Below, one piece after another: positions 3,295 through 36,513 of a stretch of 36,513 bases of DNA. Positions within the stretch are counted from its first letter, which is position 1; each line of letters starts with the position of its first letter. The DNA is from a virus, in IMG/VR virus record IMGVR_UViG_3300005613_000201, positions 1-36,513 of that record. One strand, written 5' to 3'. A program made the position numbers and the translations under genes. Below the pieces are notes generated by a model that saw only the letters and a program-made list of their open reading frames with translations, was not told where the DNA came from and ran no database searches.

Positions 3295-5316
3295 GTGGAT
3301 TTAATCAAGAAAGCAACGGATGCTTTACTTAGTGGGAAACAGGAAGAAATTACTCCTGATGACACTAAACTTTATGCGTTTTTAAAAGAGCGTGTAGAAG
3401 ATACAAGGCGTTCTACTTCTCGTGTTACTCATGAGTCTATTTGGTTGACCAATATTGCTTACTTGTTGGGCTATGAGAACATTTACTTTGATCCTGTTCT
3501 TCGTAGATATCGATCCAATGATGCCACTCAACCTTACTTGACCCGGTCACGCATTCACGCAAACAAAATTCTTCCTACTATTCAAAATAGACTTTCAAGA
3601 CTGACAAAGTCTCGACCAAAATATCAAGTCCGTCCAAACTCAAACGATCAATCAGATAAAGATGCATCACGTTTAGGTGAGCAAATTTTAGATTATGTTT
3701 GGCAAGAAGAGGACATGGCTACTAAGCAAATTGATTTGTACATGCTTTTACAAGAGTGTGGTCATGCTTACTTAAAGGTTTCTTGGGACACTGAAAAAGG
3801 TGAACCCATGGTCGATCCTGAAACAGGTGAATTAGAATATGAGGGCAATATTCGTGTTGATGTTGTTTCAGCTTTTGAGGTTTTTCCTGATCCTTTGGCC
3901 AAAACACTCCGAGAAGCGAAGTGGGTCGTTCAAGCAAAAGTAAGAAAGCTTGATTACTTTAAAGAGCGATATGAAAAAGGTCATCTTGTTAAAGAAGAAG
4001 ACACGTGGCTTTTGTCTGCTCAGTATGAACAAAGAATCAATAGCATGAATGTGACGGGTAACGGGCAGCAGGGCTCGGCCATGAAACAAAAGAACACCGC
4101 TATTGAAATTAGTTATTATGAGCGAAGATCTAAAAAGCACCCCAATGGGAGACTTATCATTGGTGCAAACGGTGTAATTTTAGAAGACAAGGAACTTCCT
4201 GTTGGAGAAATTCCTTTTTGTAAGTTTGACGATATTGTTGTGGGTGGAAAATATTACTCTGAAAGTATTATTACGCACTTAAGACCGTTACAAGATCAGT
4301 ATAACCGTTTGCTTAATAAACGAGCTGATTGGGTTAATCGAATGCTTACAGGTAAATACTTGTCTGCAAGAGGAAGTGAGTTAATTGCTGAAGCGCTTAA
4401 TGACCGTAGTGGTGAAGTGGTGGAATACACACCGGTGCCGAATGCTCCTCCGCCGACTGCAATGGATACGCCGCCAATACCAAGTTACGCGTACAAAGAG
4501 GAGGATAGCCTCCTTAGCCAGTTTAATGACATTAGCGGAATTAATGAGGTTTCGAGAGGACAGGCCCCGCAGGGAGGCGTTACAGCAGCGATTGCGTTAC
4601 AATATTTGTCGGAACAAGATGATACAAGAATCGGGATCATGTCGAGGCGACACGAGCTACAATACGCAAAGCTCGGAAACTTAGTGCTTCGTTATATTGA
4701 AAAGTATTATAAAAACGAACGTCTTTTAAAGCTTACAGGTCAAAACAATCAGTACCTTGTAAAATCATTTAGAGGTTCTGATTTATCTGGAAACACTGAT
4801 GTTGTTGTTATTGAAGGTTCTACACTGCCTGGTTCAATCACTGCAAAACGAGATCTTATTTTAACTCTTCGTAGAGAAGGATTAATGGGAAATCCACAGG
4901 ATCCAAAAGCAAACGAGCGAGTTATGAAGCTGCTTGAGTTTGGTGATCTTGATGGAATTTGGGAAGATTATGCAATTGATATGAATCAAGTGAAGCAATC
5001 CATTGAGCAAATTAAGCAAGGGTTTAGGCCTGAGATTAATGAAATGGATAACAACCAATTGCACGTTTACGAAAAGAATAAGCTCAGAAAAACAGATGCA
5101 TTTAAAAAGATGACTCCTGAGTCACAAGCATTGCTTATGGAAGATATTCAGGCTCGTTTAGATTTAATGACTGATATGGCAAACCCGCAGTTGTCACAAC
5201 AGGAGCAAATGTTAGCGGAGCAAGAAGCCCAGCTAGGTTCTCTTCCTACTGAAGAGGAATTATTACAGGATGAATTAACACAACAACAGAATTTATCGGA
5301 GGTTGATCAATTATGA
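3295..5316 (+). CDS. Portal protein (P22-type)
   Basis: 673 residues starting at GTG 3295 with a GGGCAG element upstream. The protein has the layout of P22-like portals: a charged N-terminus, then LTKSRPKYQVRPNSNDQ (about residues 100-117), conserved aromatic clusters around KYYSESIITHLRPLQDQYNR, the GINEVSRGQAPQGGVTA segment (about 415-431), and a long helical, Gln/Glu-rich C-terminus. It would form the dodecameric ring at one head vertex through which DNA enters and to which the tail attaches. P22 portal is somewhat longer (725 aa). The next gene overlaps its stop (ATGA). Confidence in the role is high from motif content and position between terminase and scaffold/capsid. Confidence 0.9.
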   Translation: MDLIKKATDALLSGKQEEITPDDTKLYAFLKERVEDTRRSTSRVTHESIWLTNIAYLLGYENIYFDPVLRRYRSNDATQPYLTRSRIHANKILPTIQNRLSRLTKSRPKYQVRPNSNDQSDKDASRLGEQILDYVWQEEDMATKQIDLYMLLQECGHAYLKVSWDTEKGEPMVDPETGELEYEGNIRVDVVSAFEVFPDPLAKTLREAKWVVQAKVRKLDYFKERYEKGHLVKEEDTWLLSAQYEQRINSMNVTGNGQQGSAMKQKNTAIEISYYERRSKKHPNGRLIIGANGVILEDKELPVGEIPFCKFDDIVVGGKYYSESIITHLRPLQDQYNRLLNKRADWVNRMLTGKYLSARGSELIAEALNDRSGEVVEYTPVPNAPPPTAMDTPPIPSYAYKEEDSLLSQFNDISGINEVSRGQAPQGGVTAAIALQYLSEQDDTRIGIMSRRHELQYAKLGNLVLRYIEKYYKNERLLKLTGQNNQYLVKSFRGSDLSGNTDVVVIEGSTLPGSITAKRDLILTLRREGLMGNPQDPKANERVMKLLEFGDLDGIWEDYAIDMNQVKQSIEQIKQGFRPEINEMDNNQLHVYEKNKLRKTDAFKKMTPESQALLMEDIQARLDLMTDMANPQLSQQEQMLAEQEAQLGSLPTEEELLQDELTQQQNLSEVDQL

Positions 5317-12768: not shown

Positions 12769-12821
12769 ATCAATTGTTGATCGATTAGAATTTTCTACAT
12801 ACGCTTTGTTTGGAGGTATTT

Positions 12822-15008
12822 ATGAGGCCAAGCATTGCACTGTGTATGATTATGAAAAACGAGGAGGAAAACCTTTCTCGTGTATTGTCTAGTGTTGAAG
12901 AGTGTTTTGATGAAATTCACATTACTGACACTGGATCTACTGACAAGTCTGTCGATGTAGCAGAGACTTTTGGAGCCAAGGTTCACCATTTTGAATGGAT
13001 TGAAGATTTTGGCGCAGCAAGAAACTATTCATTTAGTCATGCAACCACAGATTACATTATGTGGTTAGATTGTGACGACACACTAGATAACAAAGAGGCG
13101 TTTTTAAAATGGCGAGACAACGCCATGGTCATGAATGATTATTGGCTAAATACCTATCACTATGCCTTAGATCAAAATGGTAGACCTGTTTGTTCGTTTG
13201 CAAGAGAGCGTGTCGTAAAACGTTCAAAAGGGTTTAAGTGGAAATATTTCCTTCACGAGGGAATCGCTCCAATTAGTGAAGACGGATCCAGTTTTAAAAG
13301 TTCATTTGTAAGTACATGGTCTGTAAAACACCACAGAACAGTTAAAGATTTAGAAAAAGATAAAGGTAGAAACATTCGGATTATTGAGAGTCACCTAAAC
13401 AAAGGTGAAGAGCTTGATGAAAGAATGAATTATTATTACGGAAAAGAGTTGTTTGAGGCTGGAAAGAACAAAGAGGCAATCAAGCAATTAACGATGGCAA
13501 TGAAGCAAGAAAAGATGGAGCTTCATGATCGAATTCTTTGTATGCAGTATCTTTGCATCACTCTTTTAAAGTCAGACAAATTAGAGAACTATTTAGCGTG
13601 TCAGGAGGTAGCACAACAAGGTTTAAGGCTTATGCCTCATAGGGCCGAGTTTTATTGTTTTATTGGTGATGCGTATTTAAAGCAAAACCAATTACATGAG
13701 GCTATACCTAGTTTTGAAGCTGCAAAGCGGTGCAAAAATACCTCCGCACCAAGACCGGGTATGGCCTCGCCAATTTTCTCTTATGGTGATGTTTATGGGC
13801 CTTATCCAACAAAACAATTAATTAGAATTTATGCTCGTTTAAATGATGCCGATAGTGCGGTTGAGGAGCTCGAGTATGCGAAAAAAAAGTGGCCAGATGA
13901 TCCTGAAATTCAAGGTCTTGAGCCGGACATTAAGCGATTACAAAAACGAATTAATATTACTGGTGATCGGCATGACACTGATGACATTGTATTTACTTGC
14001 CCTCCTATGAATTTGTATGACTGGGATTATGAGATCTACAAAGAAAAGGGAATTGGGGGATCAGAAACAGCTCTTGTTGAAATGGCCTATTGGTTAAAAA
14101 AGCTAACCAAAAAAAGGGTCTTAGTGTTTCACACCAGAAAAGAAAACAAGGTTATTGAGGGTGTTGAGTACTTTAAACAAGATGATTTATTTACATACTT
14201 CGATGCTTTTAAACCAAAGCTTCATATTGCGTGGAGACATGGAACGCCTTTAACTCATGCTAAGACACTTGTTTGGTCACATGATTTAGTGACTAATGAC
14301 ACTCACAACACAGATAAGTTTGATAAGATTCTTTGTTTAAGTGAGTTTCATAAAAACTACTATCACTCAATGGTAGGAACCCCATTAGATAAGATTGATT
14401 TAACCTCTAATGGAATTGACCCAACTCGTTTTCGAGATCTTGAAACAAACAAAGATGAAAACAAGATCATCTATTCTTCCTCTCCTGATCGAGGATTAAA
14501 AGAGGCTATGCTTGTGATGGATGAAGTGGTCAAAGAGATGCCCAACGCCAAGCTTCATGTGTTTTATGGTTTTAACAACATGGAAAAGTTTGGCATGACA
14601 GATGTAGTCAACGAATTAAAGAAGATGATTAAAGAGCGTGATCATGTTGTGTTTCATGGAAACGTCTCTCAAAAGCAGTTAGCCCACGAATTTTCAAGTG
14701 CGGCTGTATGGTTATATCCAACGTGGTTTCTAGAGACCTATTGTATTACTGCAATTGAGGCTTTGTGCTGTCAGGTCTATCCGGTAGTTCGAAATATTGG
14801 AGCCTTACAAAATACTCTTGCATATGCTGCAGCACGTAATATGGCTGAATTAGTGGATGCTCGGCCGGACACGGAAGAGGGAATAAGAGATTTTGCACGC
14901 AGAACAGTGGATGCGTTAAAGCAAAAAAAATGGCAAAATGTTAATATAGACCCTGAAGCATATTCATGGGAATCTGTCGCAAAGCAGTGGATTAAGGATT
15001 ATCTATAA
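12822..15008 (+). CDS. Bifunctional glycosyltransferase: GT2 - TPR - GT4
   Basis: 728 residues. ATG 12822 is preceded by GGAGG at 12812-12816; an in-frame TTG at 12810 is too close to that site to be the start. Residues 1-170 are a GT-A (family GT2) domain of the kind linked to TPRs: IALCMIMKNEE, DTGSTD (36-41), DFGAARNYS and the metal/sugar motif WLDCDD (81-86). Residues about 195-380 are helical repeats of TPR type. The C-terminal part is GT-B (GT4-like), with SNGID, a Gly-rich sugar-nucleotide region and the EX7E motif at Glu638/Glu646 (ETYCITAIE). It should transfer two sugars or build a short glycan from nucleotide sugars. It sits between virion genes in the same transcript, so modification of virion proteins is plausible; host-surface modification is the alternative. 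Confidence 0.88.
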   Translation: MRPSIALCMIMKNEEENLSRVLSSVEECFDEIHITDTGSTDKSVDVAETFGAKVHHFEWIEDFGAARNYSFSHATTDYIMWLDCDDTLDNKEAFLKWRDNAMVMNDYWLNTYHYALDQNGRPVCSFARERVVKRSKGFKWKYFLHEGIAPISEDGSSFKSSFVSTWSVKHHRTVKDLEKDKGRNIRIIESHLNKGEELDERMNYYYGKELFEAGKNKEAIKQLTMAMKQEKMELHDRILCMQYLCITLLKSDKLENYLACQEVAQQGLRLMPHRAEFYCFIGDAYLKQNQLHEAIPSFEAAKRCKNTSAPRPGMASPIFSYGDVYGPYPTKQLIRIYARLNDADSAVEELEYAKKKWPDDPEIQGLEPDIKRLQKRINITGDRHDTDDIVFTCPPMNLYDWDYEIYKEKGIGGSETALVEMAYWLKKLTKKRVLVFHTRKENKVIEGVEYFKQDDLFTYFDAFKPKLHIAWRHGTPLTHAKTLVWSHDLVTNDTHNTDKFDKILCLSEFHKNYYHSMVGTPLDKIDLTSNGIDPTRFRDLETNKDENKIIYSSSPDRGLKEAMLVMDEVVKEMPNAKLHVFYGFNNMEKFGMTDVVNELKKMIKERDHVVFHGNVSQKQLAHEFSSAAVWLYPTWFLETYCITAIEALCCQVYPVVRNIGALQNTLAYAAARNMAELVDARPDTEEGIRDFARRTVDALKQKKWQNVNIDPEAYSWESVAKQWIKDYL

Positions 15009-26715: not shown

Positions 26716-26790
26716 TGGCTGCGCGAGAAGGATTCGAACCTCCGACCAATGCATTAACAGTGCACCGCTCTACCGCTGAGCTACCGCGCA
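26716..26790 (-). tRNA. tRNA-Asn (GTT)
   Basis: Minus-strand cloverleaf: acceptor TGCGCGG with TCGCGCA (one G-U), D-arm GCTCAGCGGTAGAGC, anticodon stem GTGCA/TGCAT around loop CTGTTAA (anticodon GTT, Asn), T-arm GGAGG-TTCGAAT-CCTTC, discriminator G, and an encoded CCA (plus 26716-26718). All expected invariant bases are present. The 5' end lies eight bases after the stop codon of the minus-strand lyase-like gene, so the tRNA is probably processed from that mRNA. Confidence 0.95.
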
Positions 26791-26798
26791 TCACCAAA

Positions 26799-28850
26799 TT
26801 ATCGCCCTTGGCTATTTACGGTTTGTAAAAGCGCTAGGGTATTTTCCATATGACCATATTTCTTATCAGAGACAATTTTATTTTCAGCAGCTTGAAAATT
26901 GTTTGTTTCTGTAAATTTAAAGATCCAATCAACCGGATCTAGGCCACTATCGTTTTGATTAACGAGTGCGTGATAACAGATGCCGATGACGCTACCAAAA
27001 TTATAGGTCTCTGCACCAATCGTATCCATCAGTCCGTCTTGAGGAATTTCATCTAATAAGACGAATTCATTTCCGATTTTCTTATGTGTCGGTACTCTTT
27101 GATAGGGTCCTTTGTCTCCAGGTTTCCAAGCATAGTCTTGAATGGCTTGGCAAAGGCCTACGAGAACGTCTAGATAGTCTCCTGTGAGCCGAAAGACGCC
27201 TAAGAGTGCTGTGGCATAGAAGCAGGCTGGATAGCTTTGTCCGACCCAGTATTGGCTATTAAAGGGTTCTGTAGACATGACTTTAAACGCTGTTTGTCGA
27301 TGGAGCCATCCGGAAGGAAGCTGAACGTAACGAAGAAGATCCATGACTTCTGTTAACCATTTGAGATCTCTTTGTTTATTTTTAAAGTTCACCTGAAAAG
27401 CAGCAGCATGAGCGACACAGTCAATCATCCAAGCGGCTTCTCTTCCTTCACCGATACCGTCTGCTTCATCAAAGCTGTTGATATCCCAGCGCCCATTTTT
27501 TCCTGTCCAGTAGGCCATTTTCTGTAATTGAGCGTCCCCTAAAAAGCCAATCTTTGTCATGGGATCATTGGTTAACCAGACGAGCATTTGTTGGCGACCT
27601 GTTACACGTCGAAGGTGTTGATGATCGATATTCATCCATTGTCGAAGTTCATCTTCGTAATCACAAGTTCCTTTATTTCCAGTTGCTTTTGAAAAAAAGA
27701 AAGGAGCATCTTGAACTTGTCCACCTGACACTTGCCAGTTATTCGAGAAGATCTTCCAAGGAGTGGACCCATCAGCATTGACATAATCCTCAGGCATAAC
27801 AGGCATACCGTTTGATTCGTAGATATGTCCTTTTTGACGAGTATTGTATCGATATTCAGTAATGTAAGCGGTTTCAATTTCTCTTACATTTTTAAGCATA
27901 GGGGCAAATGAGTGTGGAATGTTTTCAATATCAACCCCACCTGTTCCACCTTGATACTTAATATCCGATAGAACATAAAGTCCATCAGACTCGGGCATCG
28001 TTTGATTACTGTACATCCCTTCATTGTTTTGAAATTTAGCTAAAGTGGAATTGTAGTTATTTTCAGCTTTTCCTTCAGCTTGAGGATGCATTCCAATTTC
28101 AAATCGTTGTAAGAGGTAGTCTCCTTTAAAGTAATCAGCAAAGCCTTGTCCCCACGTTTTAGGTTTATGACTTTCAGCTGATTTATGAATAGCAAGACGT
28201 CTAGAGATTCGTGCTTGCTTTAAAAGAAGGTGTTTAAAGGGCCTAATTAAGTATTCGTTTTGTTTCGTTCCGTATGGAATGTGTTCACTAAAATCCATTC
28301 CTGATGGAAGATCGAGTTTGATGTAATCAAAGTAAAAATCTCCTTTAGCTGGAAGCTGACAGTTATGGATATTAAGATCAAGATCCCATGAATTACTAAA
28401 TGTTTTAAAATCCAAGTAAGCATGCACTCCGATATGCGTGCCGTTAGCGTGACAGTAGAAAGTTGATCTTGCTCCTCCGAGTCGGTGAGCTGCGACTGGG
28501 TTTAAGAAGTTAAGGGGTATTTTATATTCATCAGCATCTTGAGGTTTAACAATAAGAGAGATTCCATTTAGGAGTGCGATTCCATCTTCGTCATAATCGA
28601 TGCGTTGTTGAATTGAAGTTCCCTCTACGAGATTAAATTCGATATCACCTGAGAAGGAGTCATCAATTTTAGCGCAAAACTCTACGAGTATTCCTTCGTG
28701 TAAATCAGCGACTTTTTGCCACTGAGTGAAATAGGTTTTGCCGTCCTTTTCGACTCTGTATGGACAGGTGGGGTTAAAGGTTTGGTTTGCAAGGAACTTT
28801 GTTGCAGAAAAGCAAAAAGGCTCGCCTGGTGCGTTTACATATAGTTTCAT
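26799..28850 (-). CDS. YetA / rhamnogalacturonan-lyase-like protein
   Basis: 683 residues from ATG 28850 with a strong ribosome-binding site (GGGAGG). The N-terminal half is beta-rich with blocks such as NPVAAHRLGGARSTFYCHAN and FYFDYIKLDLPSGM, matching my recollection of the PcRGLX/YetA-like RIFT-barrel and central domains. The C-terminal half has aromatic helices (GQSYPACFYATALLGVFRLT; EGREAAWMIDCVAHAAAF) typical of an alpha/alpha-toroid. Families with this order act on pectic or other uronic-acid polysaccharides. I cannot identify catalytic residues with confidence. No signal peptide. It is transcribed against its neighbours from its own promoters, with a tRNA behind it. A virion-associated depolymerase or a host-benefit enzyme are both possible. 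Confidence 0.65.
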   Translation of the reverse strand: MKLYVNAPGEPFCFSATKFLANQTFNPTCPYRVEKDGKTYFTQWQKVADLHEGILVEFCAKIDDSFSGDIEFNLVEGTSIQQRIDYDEDGIALLNGISLIVKPQDADEYKIPLNFLNPVAAHRLGGARSTFYCHANGTHIGVHAYLDFKTFSNSWDLDLNIHNCQLPAKGDFYFDYIKLDLPSGMDFSEHIPYGTKQNEYLIRPFKHLLLKQARISRRLAIHKSAESHKPKTWGQGFADYFKGDYLLQRFEIGMHPQAEGKAENNYNSTLAKFQNNEGMYSNQTMPESDGLYVLSDIKYQGGTGGVDIENIPHSFAPMLKNVREIETAYITEYRYNTRQKGHIYESNGMPVMPEDYVNADGSTPWKIFSNNWQVSGGQVQDAPFFFSKATGNKGTCDYEDELRQWMNIDHQHLRRVTGRQQMLVWLTNDPMTKIGFLGDAQLQKMAYWTGKNGRWDINSFDEADGIGEGREAAWMIDCVAHAAAFQVNFKNKQRDLKWLTEVMDLLRYVQLPSGWLHRQTAFKVMSTEPFNSQYWVGQSYPACFYATALLGVFRLTGDYLDVLVGLCQAIQDYAWKPGDKGPYQRVPTHKKIGNEFVLLDEIPQDGLMDTIGAETYNFGSVIGICYHALVNQNDSGLDPVDWIFKFTETNNFQAAENKIVSDKKYGHMENTLALLQTVNSQGR

Positions 28851-31790: not shown

Positions 31791-32141
31791 GTGAGTAAAT
31801 ATAAAAATAAACGGGTAGAATATCTAAACTACTCCTTCGCCTCCCGCGGTGAATACGAATGCTTCGCTCACCTCAAACTCCTCGAAAAAGCAGGAGAAAT
31901 CTCCGTCGACAAAGTTCAAGACAATGTCTACCTCACCAAAGCTCGCATCCACTACAAACCCGACTTCAAATGCACTCACCTCAAAACCAATGAACCCTTC
32001 TGGGTCGAATTTAAAGGCTTCGAAACACCAACCTGGAGAATTAAACGTAAACTCTGGCTTCACTACGGCCCAGGACCACTTGAGATTTACAAAAAAGGCA
32101 ATAATGGAGTAAAATTAACGGAGACACTAACCCCTAAATAG
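31791..32141 (+). CDS. DUF1064-type endonuclease, 116 aa
   Basis: GTG 31791 start, 15 nt after the preceding stop. KNKRVEYLNYSFASRGEYEC, then IHYKPDFKCTH (54-63) and WVEFKGFETPTWRIKRKLW (71-89) give the PD-(D/E)xK layout (Asp58, Glu73, Lys75) of DUF1064 phage proteins, which I regard as small nucleases acting on branched or packaged DNA. It lies directly upstream of the terminase small subunit. Like the previous gene, it strongly prefers C-ending codons. Substrate is not known. Confidence 0.75.
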   Translation: MSKYKNKRVEYLNYSFASRGEYECFAHLKLLEKAGEISVDKVQDNVYLTKARIHYKPDFKCTHLKTNEPFWVEFKGFETPTWRIKRKLWLHYGPGPLEIYKKGNNGVKLTETLTPK

Positions 32142-32164
32142 TGTTAAAGAGGATTAAAGAAGTT

Positions 32165-32569
32165 ATGGCCTTTGGAAGACCAAAAAAGGAATTTAGTTGG
32201 GAAAAGTTTGTTCAATTGTGCGGCATGCCGTCTCCAATCGTCACAAATAAGCAAATAGCCGAAATCATGGATGTTTCTGAAGACACCATCGAGAGACGCA
32301 TTAAAGAGCACTACCCCGCGTTAACTTTTGCGGATTTTCGCGCAACGTGTTATACGACAACTAAATCGAAGCTTTTTGCTGCACAAATGAAGCAGGCGTT
32401 AAAGGGGAACCCTCAGTTGTTAATTCACTTAGGAAAGAACTACTTAGGGCAAGATCGAGATATTCAACGAAGTGAAGTGACTGTAAAAGACGAAGATCAA
32501 ACCGCTAAAGACCTAGCACTTCAGTTAAACAAAATTCAAAATGACAAACGAACTAAACCTGACAGCTGA
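32165..32569 (+). CDS. Terminase small subunit
   Basis: 134 residues. I choose ATG 32165 (MAFGRPKKEFSWEKFVQLCG), with purine-rich AAAGAAG upstream, over the in-frame GTG at 32141. Residues about 30-55 (TNKQIAEIMDVSEDTIERRI) form a helix-turn-helix. The order RPKK-W-helix-HTH is typical for DNA-recognition subunits of phage terminases. The C-terminus is charged, and the gene overlaps the large-subunit fragment by 29 nt. It should bind the packaging site and load the large subunit. Confidence 0.82.
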   Translation: MAFGRPKKEFSWEKFVQLCGMPSPIVTNKQIAEIMDVSEDTIERRIKEHYPALTFADFRATCYTTTKSKLFAAQMKQALKGNPQLLIHLGKNYLGQDRDIQRSEVTVKDEDQTAKDLALQLNKIQNDKRTKPDS

Positions 32570-33296
32570 GCAACAAAGACAGGTTAATAAGTATCGACTC
32601 TTTGATATTTATTCTAACTCCCTGTATCACTTCGCTAAGTATTGCTTAGGGTATGAGGATGTAAACTGGAACACTCATGGACCCATTATTGAGGCCTTAG
32701 AGGGGAAAAGTAAGCGTAAGCTGATTGTATGCCCTAGGGGGGCGTTTAAAAGCTCTCTGTGTGTCATCTCGTACTGCCTATGGCTTATTGTAAAAGACCC
32801 TGATGTCAGAATCCTGATTGACTCAGAGCTCTTTACCAACTCAAAGAACTTTATCCGTGAAATGCAGGCTCATCTAGAATCACCCCGCTTTATCGCCATC
32901 TTCGGAGATATGAAATCAAAATGGGACTGGACCCAATCTCACTTCACCGTGAAACCTCGTGTTAAAGCACATAAAAACTCTACAGTAACGGCCGGTGGAG
33001 TCGGAACGGTGAAAACAGGAGCACACTTTACGCATATCATCGCTGATGACTTAAATAGTCATATGAACTCTGCTACAGAAGATGGGCGTCAAAAAGTAAT
33101 TCAACATTATCGATATTACACTTCACTTTTAGAGCCAGATGGGACAATTGTGGTAGTAGGGACTCGTTATGCGGCTAATGACGTTATAGGATACATATTA
33201 GAAAACGAGGTGGGAGTTGACCCAACAGGAAAAAAAGATTTGCGGGAAGATTCAGGGCTTCTACAAAAATCAACAAGCACTACTGAACTGGGCTAG
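32541..33296 (+). CDS. Large terminase, N-terminal ATPase fragment
   Basis: 251 residues. Deviant Walker A CPRGAFKSS (64-72, Lys70), Walker B THIIADD (164-170) and motif III VVVGTRY (204-210) define the packaging ATPase. Terminase similarity ends at GYILENE (about 223); the last 28 residues read through into another gene and look foreign. A complete enzyme would continue with the segment now found at 2002 (KWSVVYERAIQRDG). The break lies just after motif III, inside the ATPase region, so this piece should not work without its partner. ATG 32541 overlaps the small-subunit gene. The gene at 33217 starts inside the 3' end. Confidence 0.88.
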   Translation: MTNELNLTAEQQRQVNKYRLFDIYSNSLYHFAKYCLGYEDVNWNTHGPIIEALEGKSKRKLIVCPRGAFKSSLCVISYCLWLIVKDPDVRILIDSELFTNSKNFIREMQAHLESPRFIAIFGDMKSKWDWTQSHFTVKPRVKAHKNSTVTAGGVGTVKTGAHFTHIIADDLNSHMNSATEDGRQKVIQHYRYYTSLLEPDGTIVVVGTRYAANDVIGYILENEVGVDPTGKKDLREDSGLLQKSTSTTELG

Positions 33297-34032
33297 CTTC
33301 CTTGTCGAAGCAGATGAAGCAGCCTTTGCACTCACCCTACTAGAAAAAGGCGTACCCGGTTACTTTAGAGATAATCCCACTAAAGAAATGGTCAACCTTC
33401 GTCGAACCATTAGACGACAACTCATGACGACGGCCGATTACATTAAAAATGACGCGGATGATCCTTGTGATGATGAAAGAGCAAAACTATCTGTAGAGCA
33501 ACTCCATCGGGCTGGTGTCGTAGAGGACATCATTAAGGATTACAATGAAAGAGACATCAAACCTCATGTTGTGGATCTTGGCCCTGGTGATTATTGGCTC
33601 CCTTTGGGACTTAAGCAAAGAAATGCTGTATTCACTTACCGTCCGGTATCAGTGCAACCAACAGCAAAATTACTAGCAAAAGACCGATTAAAAGACATTC
33701 TCATCGATCATGATCCTTTTAAAGCCCCTATCATCTTTCTTGCTATGGAAATCATTGAGCATCTTTGGAACCCACATGAAATCGCGCAAACCGCAGACAA
33801 AATCGAAAACACCCCTCATCACATTGTCATAACCACGCCGCTTTATACGTTTGGCGAAGGAAACGACACATGGACTAAACCTAATGATTTCGGTAAACTT
33901 GGACACATTCGTACGTTTACCCCTATTGAATTTCAAGAAGAGGTCACACGAATGTTTTTTGGTTACAATTGGAAAATGCACATACAACAGTGCATGGTTA
34001 TGGAAGGAACCTTAAAAGATGAGTTCAAATAG
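33217..34032 (+). CDS. Class I methyltransferase-like protein (first gene of insert)
   Basis: 271 residues. The only possible start near the 5' end is TTG 33217, since a stop precedes it in frame; GAGG six bases upstream is a good ribosome-binding site. The helical N-terminus (1-100) is followed by HVVDLGPGDYW (117-127, SAM motif I), MEIIEHLWNP (177-186), VITTPLYTFGEG (204-215) and GHIRTFTPIEF (229-239). This order is typical of class I SAM-dependent methyltransferases acting on sugars or small molecules. Motif I has Pro where GxG usually has Cys/Gly, which may still bind SAM. It begins inside the broken terminase gene. Codons are more often C-ending than in the terminase. Confidence 0.7.
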   Translation: MTQQEKKICGKIQGFYKNQQALLNWASFLVEADEAAFALTLLEKGVPGYFRDNPTKEMVNLRRTIRRQLMTTADYIKNDADDPCDDERAKLSVEQLHRAGVVEDIIKDYNERDIKPHVVDLGPGDYWLPLGLKQRNAVFTYRPVSVQPTAKLLAKDRLKDILIDHDPFKAPIIFLAMEIIEHLWNPHEIAQTADKIENTPHHIVITTPLYTFGEGNDTWTKPNDFGKLGHIRTFTPIEFQEEVTRMFFGYNWKMHIQQCMVMEGTLKDEFK

Positions 34033-34333
34033 AGTTGGACTAGCTGAGGGAATGTCAGCTTTTCAAATGGATGTAGGCCTTAGTTCTATCGTTGAAATCC
34101 CAGCAATTGCAGGACAAGTAGGTCTTGCGATTAGACGTGTTGCGGGAGGAACAATGGAAATTGGAGGTCAATCTCTTACATGGGGTCAGGGCCAAGTGGT
34201 TTCAATTACTGAGGTATCCACCGGAAACATCATTCCAGTAACAGGACCCATTTATGTAGCAGCATCAGGCGCTACATTGACAATTTCTGGGTTCAAATTG
34301 TTTTCAGAGGGTAATCCAGGAAACGTAGGTTAA
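34019..34333 (+). CDS. Small beta-rich virion-type protein, copy 1, 104 aa
   Basis: Overlaps the methyltransferase gene by 14 nt; AAGGAA lies upstream. It shares with the next gene the pattern F-x-VGLSS-x-[IV]E, GQ, GGT-x-E, WG-x-G-x-V, then Y-x-AA-[ST]G-[AS]T-x-T, so the two are tandem paralogues. Beta-rich, no membrane helix. Probably a minor virion component (head decoration or fibre attachment) by fold style and by the neighbouring repeat-containing protein. Confidence 0.65.
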   Translation: MSSNRVGLAEGMSAFQMDVGLSSIVEIPAIAGQVGLAIRRVAGGTMEIGGQSLTWGQGQVVSITEVSTGNIIPVTGPIYVAASGATLTISGFKLFSEGNPGNVG

Positions 34334-34632
34334 TGAGTGATCGAAAAGATGTCCATGGCTTAGAGGGATTCCGATTCGCTGTTGGACTATCGTCAGTCAT
34401 TGAGCTTGAAGTTGAGCCCGGTCAAATTGTTACTGCCTTTAAGTATTTCAACGGGGGGACTTTGGAGCTAGTCAGCGGTCAAACGGCAGCGCCGTGGGGC
34501 CTGGGTTACGTGTTTGGAGTTGGCGAGGCAATCGAAATAGATAGCTCCACGAATACATATTTTGCTGCAACCGGCTCCACCGTAACCGTCATGGCTTTAC
34601 GTGGTCGATCCGCAGGATTTGAAAATGTCTAG
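34333..34632 (+). CDS. Small beta-rich virion-type protein, copy 2, 99 aa
   Basis: Begins at the stop of its paralogue (TAATG) and overlaps the next gene by eight nt. It matches copy 1 in GLSSVIELEVEPGQIV, GGTLEL, WGLGYV and YFAATGSTVTVM. Its middle part is more acidic and has lost several glycines, so the copies have diverged well beyond recent duplication. It may form heteromers with copy 1 in the virion. Confidence 0.65.
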   Translation: MSDRKDVHGLEGFRFAVGLSSVIELEVEPGQIVTAFKYFNGGTLELVSGQTAAPWGLGYVFGVGEAIEIDSSTNTYFAATGSTVTVMALRGRSAGFENV

Positions 34633-36513
34633 AATAAGAATAACGACACCACAAAGTGTAAACGTTAATAGCTTTAGCATTATTCAACCTGATTTTGGCA
34701 CATCACCCTCTGCTGATAGCCCTACTGACACTCTAACCCTTACTAGTTCAGACTCATCAATCACCATTACAGGTGATTCAACCACAGACACAATTGACTT
34801 TACAGGAGCTGGAGGAGGAGGCGTGAGCACTCAATATGATGAAGGCGATGGCCCAATAGTAACGGCCACAGGTAATTTCTTAGTTTATAAAAATACATCA
34901 AACGTCATGGTCGGTGTGACAGACACCACTGGACTTCCTATCGACATCATCAGCTCGATTGATTTAGACGTCGTTCAATCCACTCATGATAATTTAAACT
35001 TAAACGCAAACATTCAAGTTGCAGATACAGACGTTTCTAATGGTAATCCTGTTCCAATAAGTGATGCAGGTGGATCTGTTACAATCGATTCAACACAACT
35101 TCCATCGTCTTTAGGACAAAAGACAATGGCAAATAGTTTTCCTATTGTAATCGCTTCTGATCAAACGGCCGTACCGATTTCAGATGATGGTGGATCTATA
35201 ACGGTTGACGGAACAGTAGCTGCGACTCAATCTGGAACTTGGAATATTAATAACATTTCAGGAACCGTAAGCTTACCGACAGGTGCAGCAACTGAGAGCA
35301 CACTTTCAAGTGTAAATACAAACACATCTACTATTGCAGGAGCAGTCTCTGGATCTGAAATGCAAGTGGATATCGTTGCCCCACTTCCTACTGGATCAAA
35401 CACCATTGGTGCAGTCACTCAAGCATCGGCACCATGGGATATTCAAGGGGAACTCGCTGCAGGTGCTGCGGTCACTGGAACTAATCCAGTTTTAATGGGA
35501 GGAGAAGATCCAAGCGGTAACTTAACAAGACTTCAAACCGCTCCAGATGGTGATTTAATTACTCATGTTCACACTGACTCATTTGCTTTCATTGACGGAG
35601 TTCCAAACACGGAAAGAATTCCAGTTAACGAAACGGACTTCGGGTTTTATACAACACCTGTATTTCCGTTTTTTTATAATGGATCAACATGGGATCGATT
35701 GCGAGGAAGTGCTACTGACGGAATGTTAGTGAATCTGGGCTCAAATAACGATGTAACGGTTACTGGAACAGTTACAGCAAATCAAGGGGGATCTCCCTGG
35801 CAGATTGAAGGTGAGCTTACTGCGGGCTCTTCGTCGAGTGGAACAAATCCTGTATTAATAGCAGGATCAAATGTGTTTGGTAACGTTACCGTTCCAACAA
35901 TGATTACTGCTGGTGTTTTCGAAGTGTTTGGTGTTGTTATAGCTGACACATCTGGAAACGTACCTTTAGTAAGCAACTCAGGACTTCAAACTGAAGGAAC
36001 CGAATCTCATGATGCTGTAGATGCAGGTAAGCCATTAAAAATTGGTGGAAGAGTTGAAACAGACACAGATGGTTTTACTGCTGTAGCCGATGGAGATCGA
36101 ACCGACGCATGGTTTAGTAATGTAGGAAGACAACACGTTGAATCAGCACCACATTACGAAGCGCTTACAACGACATCATCTTTAGATGATACGTTTGATA
36201 ACGTAACAACCTCAGCTAATACAGGTGATATTACTGTAGGTAACTATAATAAAATGCTTTTTGGTTTTTCGCTGGTATCAGCAAATACACCCACAAGAAT
36301 TGTCTTCAATCTTCAATATAAAACAGGCGGTGTTTATTTTACCTATATGCAAAACGTATGGGCTCGGTTTGTTTTTGATGACACTTCTGTAGCAACTCAG
36401 GTTAATAAAACAATTAGCTTTGATGTCGTGCCTGGAACTACAGTAAGGATATTAGCAAGCGCTAATGGAACAACGGCATCGGATACATTTACGATCAGTA
36501 ATAGTTTTTACCA
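34625..36513 (+). CDS. Repeat-containing virion-type protein, runs across the join
   Basis: ATG 34625 has AGGA eight bases upstream. The frame is open to the end of the window and finishes at 142 on the left edge, 635 residues in total. The N-terminal third is Ser/Thr/Asp-rich. The middle carries motifs I know from large phage virion proteins: LGQKTMANSFPIVIASDQ, VPISDDGGS, TQSGTWNINNISGTVSLPTG. Two imperfect repeats are seen (PWDIQGELAAG...GTNPVLMGG and PWQIEGELTAG...GTNPVLIAG). The C-terminal 120 residues form a beta domain ending in SFYQLYTNG. It looks like a fibre or baseplate-associated protein. It is the largest gene of the terminase insert. Confidence 0.75.
   Translation, partial: MSRIRITTPQSVNVNSFSIIQPDFGTSPSADSPTDTLTLTSSDSSITITGDSTTDTIDFTGAGGGGVSTQYDEGDGPIVTATGNFLVYKNTSNVMVGVTDTTGLPIDIISSIDLDVVQSTHDNLNLNANIQVADTDVSNGNPVPISDAGGSVTIDSTQLPSSLGQKTMANSFPIVIASDQTAVPISDDGGSITVDGTVAATQSGTWNINNISGTVSLPTGAATESTLSSVNTNTSTIAGAVSGSEMQVDIVAPLPTGSNTIGAVTQASAPWDIQGELAAGAAVTGTNPVLMGGEDPSGNLTRLQTAPDGDLITHVHTDSFAFIDGVPNTERIPVNETDFGFYTTPVFPFFYNGSTWDRLRGSATDGMLVNLGSNNDVTVTGTVTANQGGSPWQIEGELTAGSSSSGTNPVLIAGSNVFGNVTVPTMITAGVFEVFGVVIADTSGNVPLVSNSGLQTEGTESHDAVDAGKPLKIGGRVETDTDGFTAVADGDRTDAWFSNVGRQHVESAPHYEALTTTSSLDDTFDNVTTSANTGDITVGNYNKMLFGFSLVSANTPTRIVFNLQYKTGGVYFTYMQNVWARFVFDDTSVATQVNKTISFDVVPGTTVRILASANGTTASDTFTISNSFY
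36391..36513. repeat. Terminal redundancy, right copy
   Basis: Exact copy of bases 1-123. Removing one copy gives a circle of 36,390 nt in which the virion-type gene from 34625 reads through to 142 without a frameshift. Confidence 0.95.

Follow-up and report, generated by a model that had tools for sequence, protein, structure and literature searches.

A large terminase gene split at one fixed site by a variable gene cassette in a group of uncultured phages

Few proteins of tailed phages and herpesviruses are as conserved as the large terminase subunit (TerL), and the way in which its hydrolysis of ATP drives first the lid and then the DNA remains a matter of debate. In the structures solved for single-chain TerLs (phrog_38/Terminase_6; T4 gp17, D6E, Sf6 gp2 and T7 gp19), the whole motor subunit is one chain. 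Here we analyzed the 36,513-bp IMG/VR contig IMGVR_UViG_3300005613_000201 (positions 1 to 36,513, hereafter the window), in which the same domains, in the same order and with the same catalytic residues, are encoded by two genes, with the division falling between ATPase core and lid. A cassette of other genes lies between the two halves, and the same split was found in 36 distinct loci, the window included.

TerL genes in pieces have been described before. In the herpesvirus UL15/UL89-type TerL, the gene consists of two exons whose intron holds a block of two to five genes, and the halves are spliced to one mRNA and one protein (PMC6466031), whereas no splicing signal was found here. The TerL genes of the Bastillevirinae and of the Jug phages carry group I introns that are spliced out, with average lengths of ~800 nt (PMC11878797) and ~206 nt (PMC12363816), respectively, and the TerL gene of Campylobacter phage IBB_35 is cut by an intein and an intron (PMC3322345). 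In those phages the insertions are self-splicing elements or inteins, often with homing endonucleases, and the pieces are rejoined to one chain; in contrast, the insertion described here is a variable gene cassette with no intron match. Podoviridae sp. ctLwi270 (MW202554, locus L010), whose portal and capsid are related to those of the present group, also has its TerL (MW202554.1, 8923-11460) in two open reading frames (ORFs). However, its break falls after the lid and linker and before the nuclease, and the lid region of the first ORF contains an intein-like segment; the ctLwi270 split is a different, independent event. Two families annotated as terminase large subunit, phrog_4758 (243 aa) and phrog_5573 (250 aa), each cover one half with the same boundary as here, and thus half-length TerLs had been collected before. 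No description of a two-chain phage TerL was found in the literature searched, whose coverage did not extend to subscription papers.

The window carries a 123-bp exact terminal repeat (bases 1-123 = 36391-36513), and when the contig ends are joined, the long gene that crosses them stays open as a 643-aa frame. Both observations indicate that the circle is sound. On this circle, TerL chain 1, the ATPase core, is a 251-aa protein encoded at 32541-33296 (plus strand, as are all the genes of the terminase region described below), which matches phrog_38 positions 291-466 (E = 3.5e-33). It contains the P-loop PRGAFKS (R66/K70), Walker B (DD169-170) and motif III (GTRY207-210), and its TerL similarity stops at GYILENE, base 33209. 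TerL chain 2 (264 aa, 2002-2796) begins with the strand after motif III and continues through the lid subdomain and the linker into an RNase H-type nuclease with residues D78, E137 and D212; it matches phrog_38 positions 468-715 (E = 5.8e-52) and also Pfam Terminase_6C (E = 6e-9). When aligned by hhalign to the one-piece TerL of a relative (L109), chain 1 corresponds to residues 3-261 and chain 2 to residues 262-498, a clean cut. Since the phrog_38 matches of the two halves abut and the alignment to the one-piece relative is continuous, no part of TerL is missing. The initial annotation, made from the letters of the window, had placed the end of the terminase similarity of the ATPase half at GYILENE, with the break just after motif III, with the remainder starting at 2002 beyond a multi-kb insert of about ten genes. 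All of this was borne out, with a stop-to-start interval of ~5.1 kb (5.2 kb from the end of similarity at 33209) and nine ORFs, close to the number expected. A second complete TerL, named there as one possible refutation, is absent: one ATPase-half match and one nuclease-half match to TerL profiles were found in the whole record.

Relatives were sought by searching each half in IMG/VR and GTDB contigs, and all loci were then scanned with models of both halves; a locus was counted if both halves were strongly matched on separate ORFs. The 36 split loci comprise 34 IMG/VR contigs (30 metagenomes by contig name), one contig of a metagenome-assembled genome (MAG) and the window. What had been noticed as a single case is therefore a trait of a whole clade. 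The split point is identical in 36/36 loci, after GTRY..D.IG.I..NE and before (K)W.VVYEKA..DGSL.FP, and in every one of them each half is a separate ORF with its own stop and start. The gap between the halves ranges from 199 to 6326 bp, holding from one to about eleven genes. In 33 of the 36, chain 2 is followed by small genes and then by a large portal-like ORF, which lies 0.4-1.1 kb after chain 2. At one locus (L058, 744-1572) chain 2 is found in two overlapping ORFs near the C-terminus, probably a frameshift or sequencing error.

A maximum likelihood tree was built from 88 TerLs, 36 split (matched domains only) and 52 one-piece, and rooted at the midpoint. All 36 split sequences fall into a single group (support 100/100) that lies within the one-piece TerLs, in a tree whose bootstrap had not fully settled according to the tool. 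The split has a single origin; the direction of change, from one piece to two, is deduced from the one-piece state of every other branch and of the structurally solved TerLs. In the closest one-piece relatives (L106, L107, L108/L109 and L114) the gene reads through the break, in L107 and L108 without an extra residue there. Among the INPHARED records examined, no named phage has this break, and those opened have a one-piece TerL, except MW202554 with its different break. The phages nearest in capsid and portal (Jasminevirus, Shocker, DS1 and ctEqG8) have a one-piece TerL of a different family. Many one-piece TerL relatives (L120-L150, GTDB contigs) were seen in contigs assigned to Patescibacteria and other candidate phyla, where they are apparently prophages or co-binned phages.

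The position of the break in the motor was examined in the structure that AlphaFold2 predicts for the one-piece relative L109 (mean predicted local distance difference test score, pLDDT, 84), whose fold matches the TerL structures of T4 gp17, D6E, Sf6 and the T7 type. The junction 261/262 falls in the turn that separates helix 251-258 from strand 263-267, after which come the lid helices (285-305) and the nuclease. With the break at this place, the ATPase core makes up chain 1, and the strand that follows belongs to chain 2 together with lid, linker and nuclease. That strand, the first of chain 2, is predicted to complete the core sheet. In the D6E TerL, the P-loop arginine touches a lid tyrosine (PMC5727402), and in T4 a coupling motif at the NsubI/NsubII junction is essential, as mutations in it abolish both ATPase and packaging (PMC3012670). 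If this geometry is kept, the contact between arginine and lid and the coupling step would act across two chains.

The residues R66/K70, DD169-170 and T208/R209 in chain 1 and D78, E137 and D212 in chain 2 are present in 36/36 loci. The mean identity between loci is about 50% for either half (lowest 38%). The ratio of nonsynonymous to synonymous substitution rates (dN/dS) for the closest pair, L025/L027, is about 0.04 and 0.02 for the two halves; in other pairs synonymous sites are saturated or nearly so, and replacement rates are low. Both halves are under strong purifying selection, and judged by sequence both appear functional. The between-genome distances of the two halves are also correlated (r = 0.49, 0 of 2000 permutations), as expected if the halves travel together.

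The cassette of the window begins with a gene (33217-34032) that overlaps the 3' tail of chain 1 and encodes a protein resembling S-adenosylmethionine-dependent methyltransferases. Its family occurs in 10/36 loci, but the methyltransferase-like assignment, also made in the initial annotation, is weak, with a match to PF13489 at E = 0.002, below the cut-off. Two tandem copies of a ~100-aa jelly-roll family (F0) follow, F0a at 34019-34333, recognized by family membership, and F0b at 34333-34632, for which AlphaFold2 predicts an all-beta structure (pLDDT 89.7). The long repetitive, fibre-like gene starts at 34625, runs to 36513 and ends at 1-142 over the joined contig ends (bases 1-123 being the repeat). 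It occupies the position of lectin-, lyase- or minor-tail-like proteins in relatives; for the long protein of the window itself, no match to a fibre, lectin, lyase or tail family was convincing. Beyond it lie a propeller-like protein without a family match (144-929), a further gene (933-1268) and a small coiled-coil-like protein (1278-1472), all three shared with locus L002, then a 55-aa ORF known by its translation only (1496-1663). The last gene (1641-2024) encodes a C-terminal hydrophobic segment and overlaps chain 2 by 23 bases; its family is found in 9/36 loci, at or close to the chain 2 end of the cassette.

The most constant component of the gap is F0. In all, 41 copies were counted, once or twice in each of 31/36 cassettes by pairwise search, plus one locus (L057) that was recognized by eye and subsequently taken into the model; at six loci a single ~100-aa F0 gene is the whole gap. 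It was not found in the fetched DNA of the one-piece relatives, and no F0 homologue of known function was found in phages, Pfam or PHROGs. The predicted jelly roll resembles cupins and unnamed phage proteins, a fold too general for naming a function. Among its fold matches is a tandem pair from Pseudomonas phage tf encoded between the tail fibre and tailspike genes (assigned to tf_60/tf_61 as a similar tandem pair of fitting length), which is at most a hint. A jelly-roll gene was also seen directly after chain 2, rather than before it, at L056 (3-963), where the contig begins inside chain 2.

Larger cassettes carry the methyltransferase-like family (10 loci), the family with the hydrophobic C-terminus (9 loci) and long repetitive proteins. 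In five loci there is a conserved ~250-aa family that looks glycosyltransferase-like by eye, without a Pfam match. A few long cassette proteins of relatives match K1-lyase_C, Lectin_like, Laminin_G_3, minor tail or virion structural families. Also between TerL halves, the fourth cassette gene of locus L015 (510 aa) is a probable DNA methyltransferase, judging by a DPPYGL motif recognized by eye. Within the split clade of the tree, at least 8 changes are required for the methyltransferase-like gene, 10 for a gap of >2 kb and 9 for a long protein, and thus the cassette content turns over often. We have moderate confidence that the gap is a hotspot for virion-surface or host-recognition genes.

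Around the terminase genes, a probable small terminase with a helix-turn-helix (32141-32569) overlaps the start of chain 1 and has weak PHROG small-subunit matches (E = 0.003), and the portal protein is encoded at 3295-5316 (phrog_156, E = 7e-46). Elsewhere in the window, a 732-aa protein with two glycosyltransferase families in tandem (12810-15008) lies inside the structural gene region. A tRNA gene (26719-26790, minus strand, Rfam score 68 bits) is located near a minus-strand ORF of 683 aa without a PHROG match (26799-28850).

A join error in assembly, or strain mixing that fused two unrelated contigs, would be one reason to doubt the split, and all members but one are IMG/VR metagenome contigs, the remaining one being a MAG contig. 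Such an error had been foreseen by the initial annotation; it was looked for and not found. The same break recurs in 36 distinct loci from 30 metagenomes and a MAG contig, with a common flanking order at nearly all of them, which excludes the artefact for practical purposes; its probability is vanishingly small, and the split is conserved and old. A genuine split could still be repaired at the RNA level, the halves being exons joined across the cassette by splicing of the herpesvirus UL15 type or by a self-splicing intron. The two-exon herpesvirus gene, with two to five genes in its intron (PMC6466031), and the group I introns of Bastillevirinae and Jug phage TerL (PMC11878797, PMC12363816) are precedents. 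However, the reported group I introns average ~800 or ~206 nt, whereas the gap here reaches 6.3 kb and its content changes freely. Rfam found a tRNA as its sole match in the window and nothing in the window's cassette even at E = 1, and it found no intron family in nine relatives at gathering cut-offs. No intein blocks and no HNH, GIY-YIG or LAGLIDADG endonucleases were found among the cassette proteins of the window or the long, jelly-roll, methyltransferase and glycosyltransferase families of relatives, a scan that left aside the relatives' smaller unclustered ORFs; the initial annotation, too, had seen neither an intron nor a homing endonuclease. In the smallest loci, moreover, the 199-407 bp gap is taken up by a conserved protein-coding gene, bounded on either side by separate stops and starts, and the tails of the chains vary in length. 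At several of these loci the stop of chain 1 and the start of the cassette gene, or the stop of the cassette gene and the start of chain 2, directly adjoin or share a few bases (e.g., ATGA in L103 and TGATG in L057). On this indirect evidence we regard splicing, the third refuting outcome named in the initial annotation, as very unlikely.

Separately encoded chains could also act apart, and one half might have taken on a new role, with chain 2, for instance, acting as a nuclease on its own and another ATPase doing the packaging. Against this, all the ATPase and nuclease residues checked are retained, both halves are under purifying selection, chain 2 keeps a lid that would be needless for a free nuclease, and the record holds a single ATPase-half and a single nuclease-half match to TerL profiles. 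We give this explanation hardly any credence. A further scenario concerns the origin of the split and is compatible with the explanation preferred below: a block of tail genes and terL could have been duplicated in tandem, the first copy then losing the nuclease half and the second the ATPase half. Tail genes do occur just upstream of intact terL in other phages (a tail fibre gene in L009, a minor tail protein gene in phage Casserole), and the cassette contains fibre-like genes. Yet at six loci there is only one small gene, for which insertion is simpler, and no remnant of a second TerL half was seen in the loci examined. Such a duplication is unlikely, although it retains a real share of the probability.

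It is highly probable, in our judgment, that one old gene fission after motif III produced a two-chain motor that reassembles in trans, and that the gap then became a hotspot for host-recognition genes. The TerL gene of an ancestor would have been broken once, in the turn after the helix following motif III, into two co-directional genes, probably together with the entry of a small gene. The two chains, expressed from the same gene cluster, would associate noncovalently as one motor subunit, and the step from ATP hydrolysis to lid movement would cross a protein interface rather than a covalent link. The insertion site, now outside any reading frame, could tolerate repeated gene gain and loss without further harm to the motor; in most members it holds one or more small jelly-roll genes, frequently along with a putative fibre or host-recognition module. 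The idea of a two-chain motor tolerating a virion-accessory cassette, raised earlier from the window alone, is supported by the 36 loci split at the same point, and the reassembly of the chains is what we infer from them.

Several points weigh against this explanation. The case comes from sequence comparison rather than from biochemistry or a two-chain structure, and the group has no cultured member, being known as metagenome and MAG contigs. RNA splicing of an unrecognized type would be compatible with the sequences, and shared ancestry would likewise make the distances of the two halves correlate. A variant, which we rate as distinctly improbable, is that the ATPase core remains on the portal and the chain with lid and nuclease is exchangeable or separately recruited, so that chain association would regulate translocation and genome cutting; the ~100-aa jelly-roll protein may then help to assemble or regulate the motor.

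If the two chains of the fissioned TerL do reassemble, a separate core and lid kept through deep divergence would represent a natural split-motor system, whose parts could be titrated, swapped and mutated apart, and would offer a natural test of how force is transmitted in the packaging motor. The group indicates that a hallmark gene can stay permanently broken without a recognizable self-splicing element, and that the scar of such a break can turn into a hotspot for variable, possibly host-recognition, genes. Phage classification based on TerL will miss or mis-score such genomes unless the two halves are joined.

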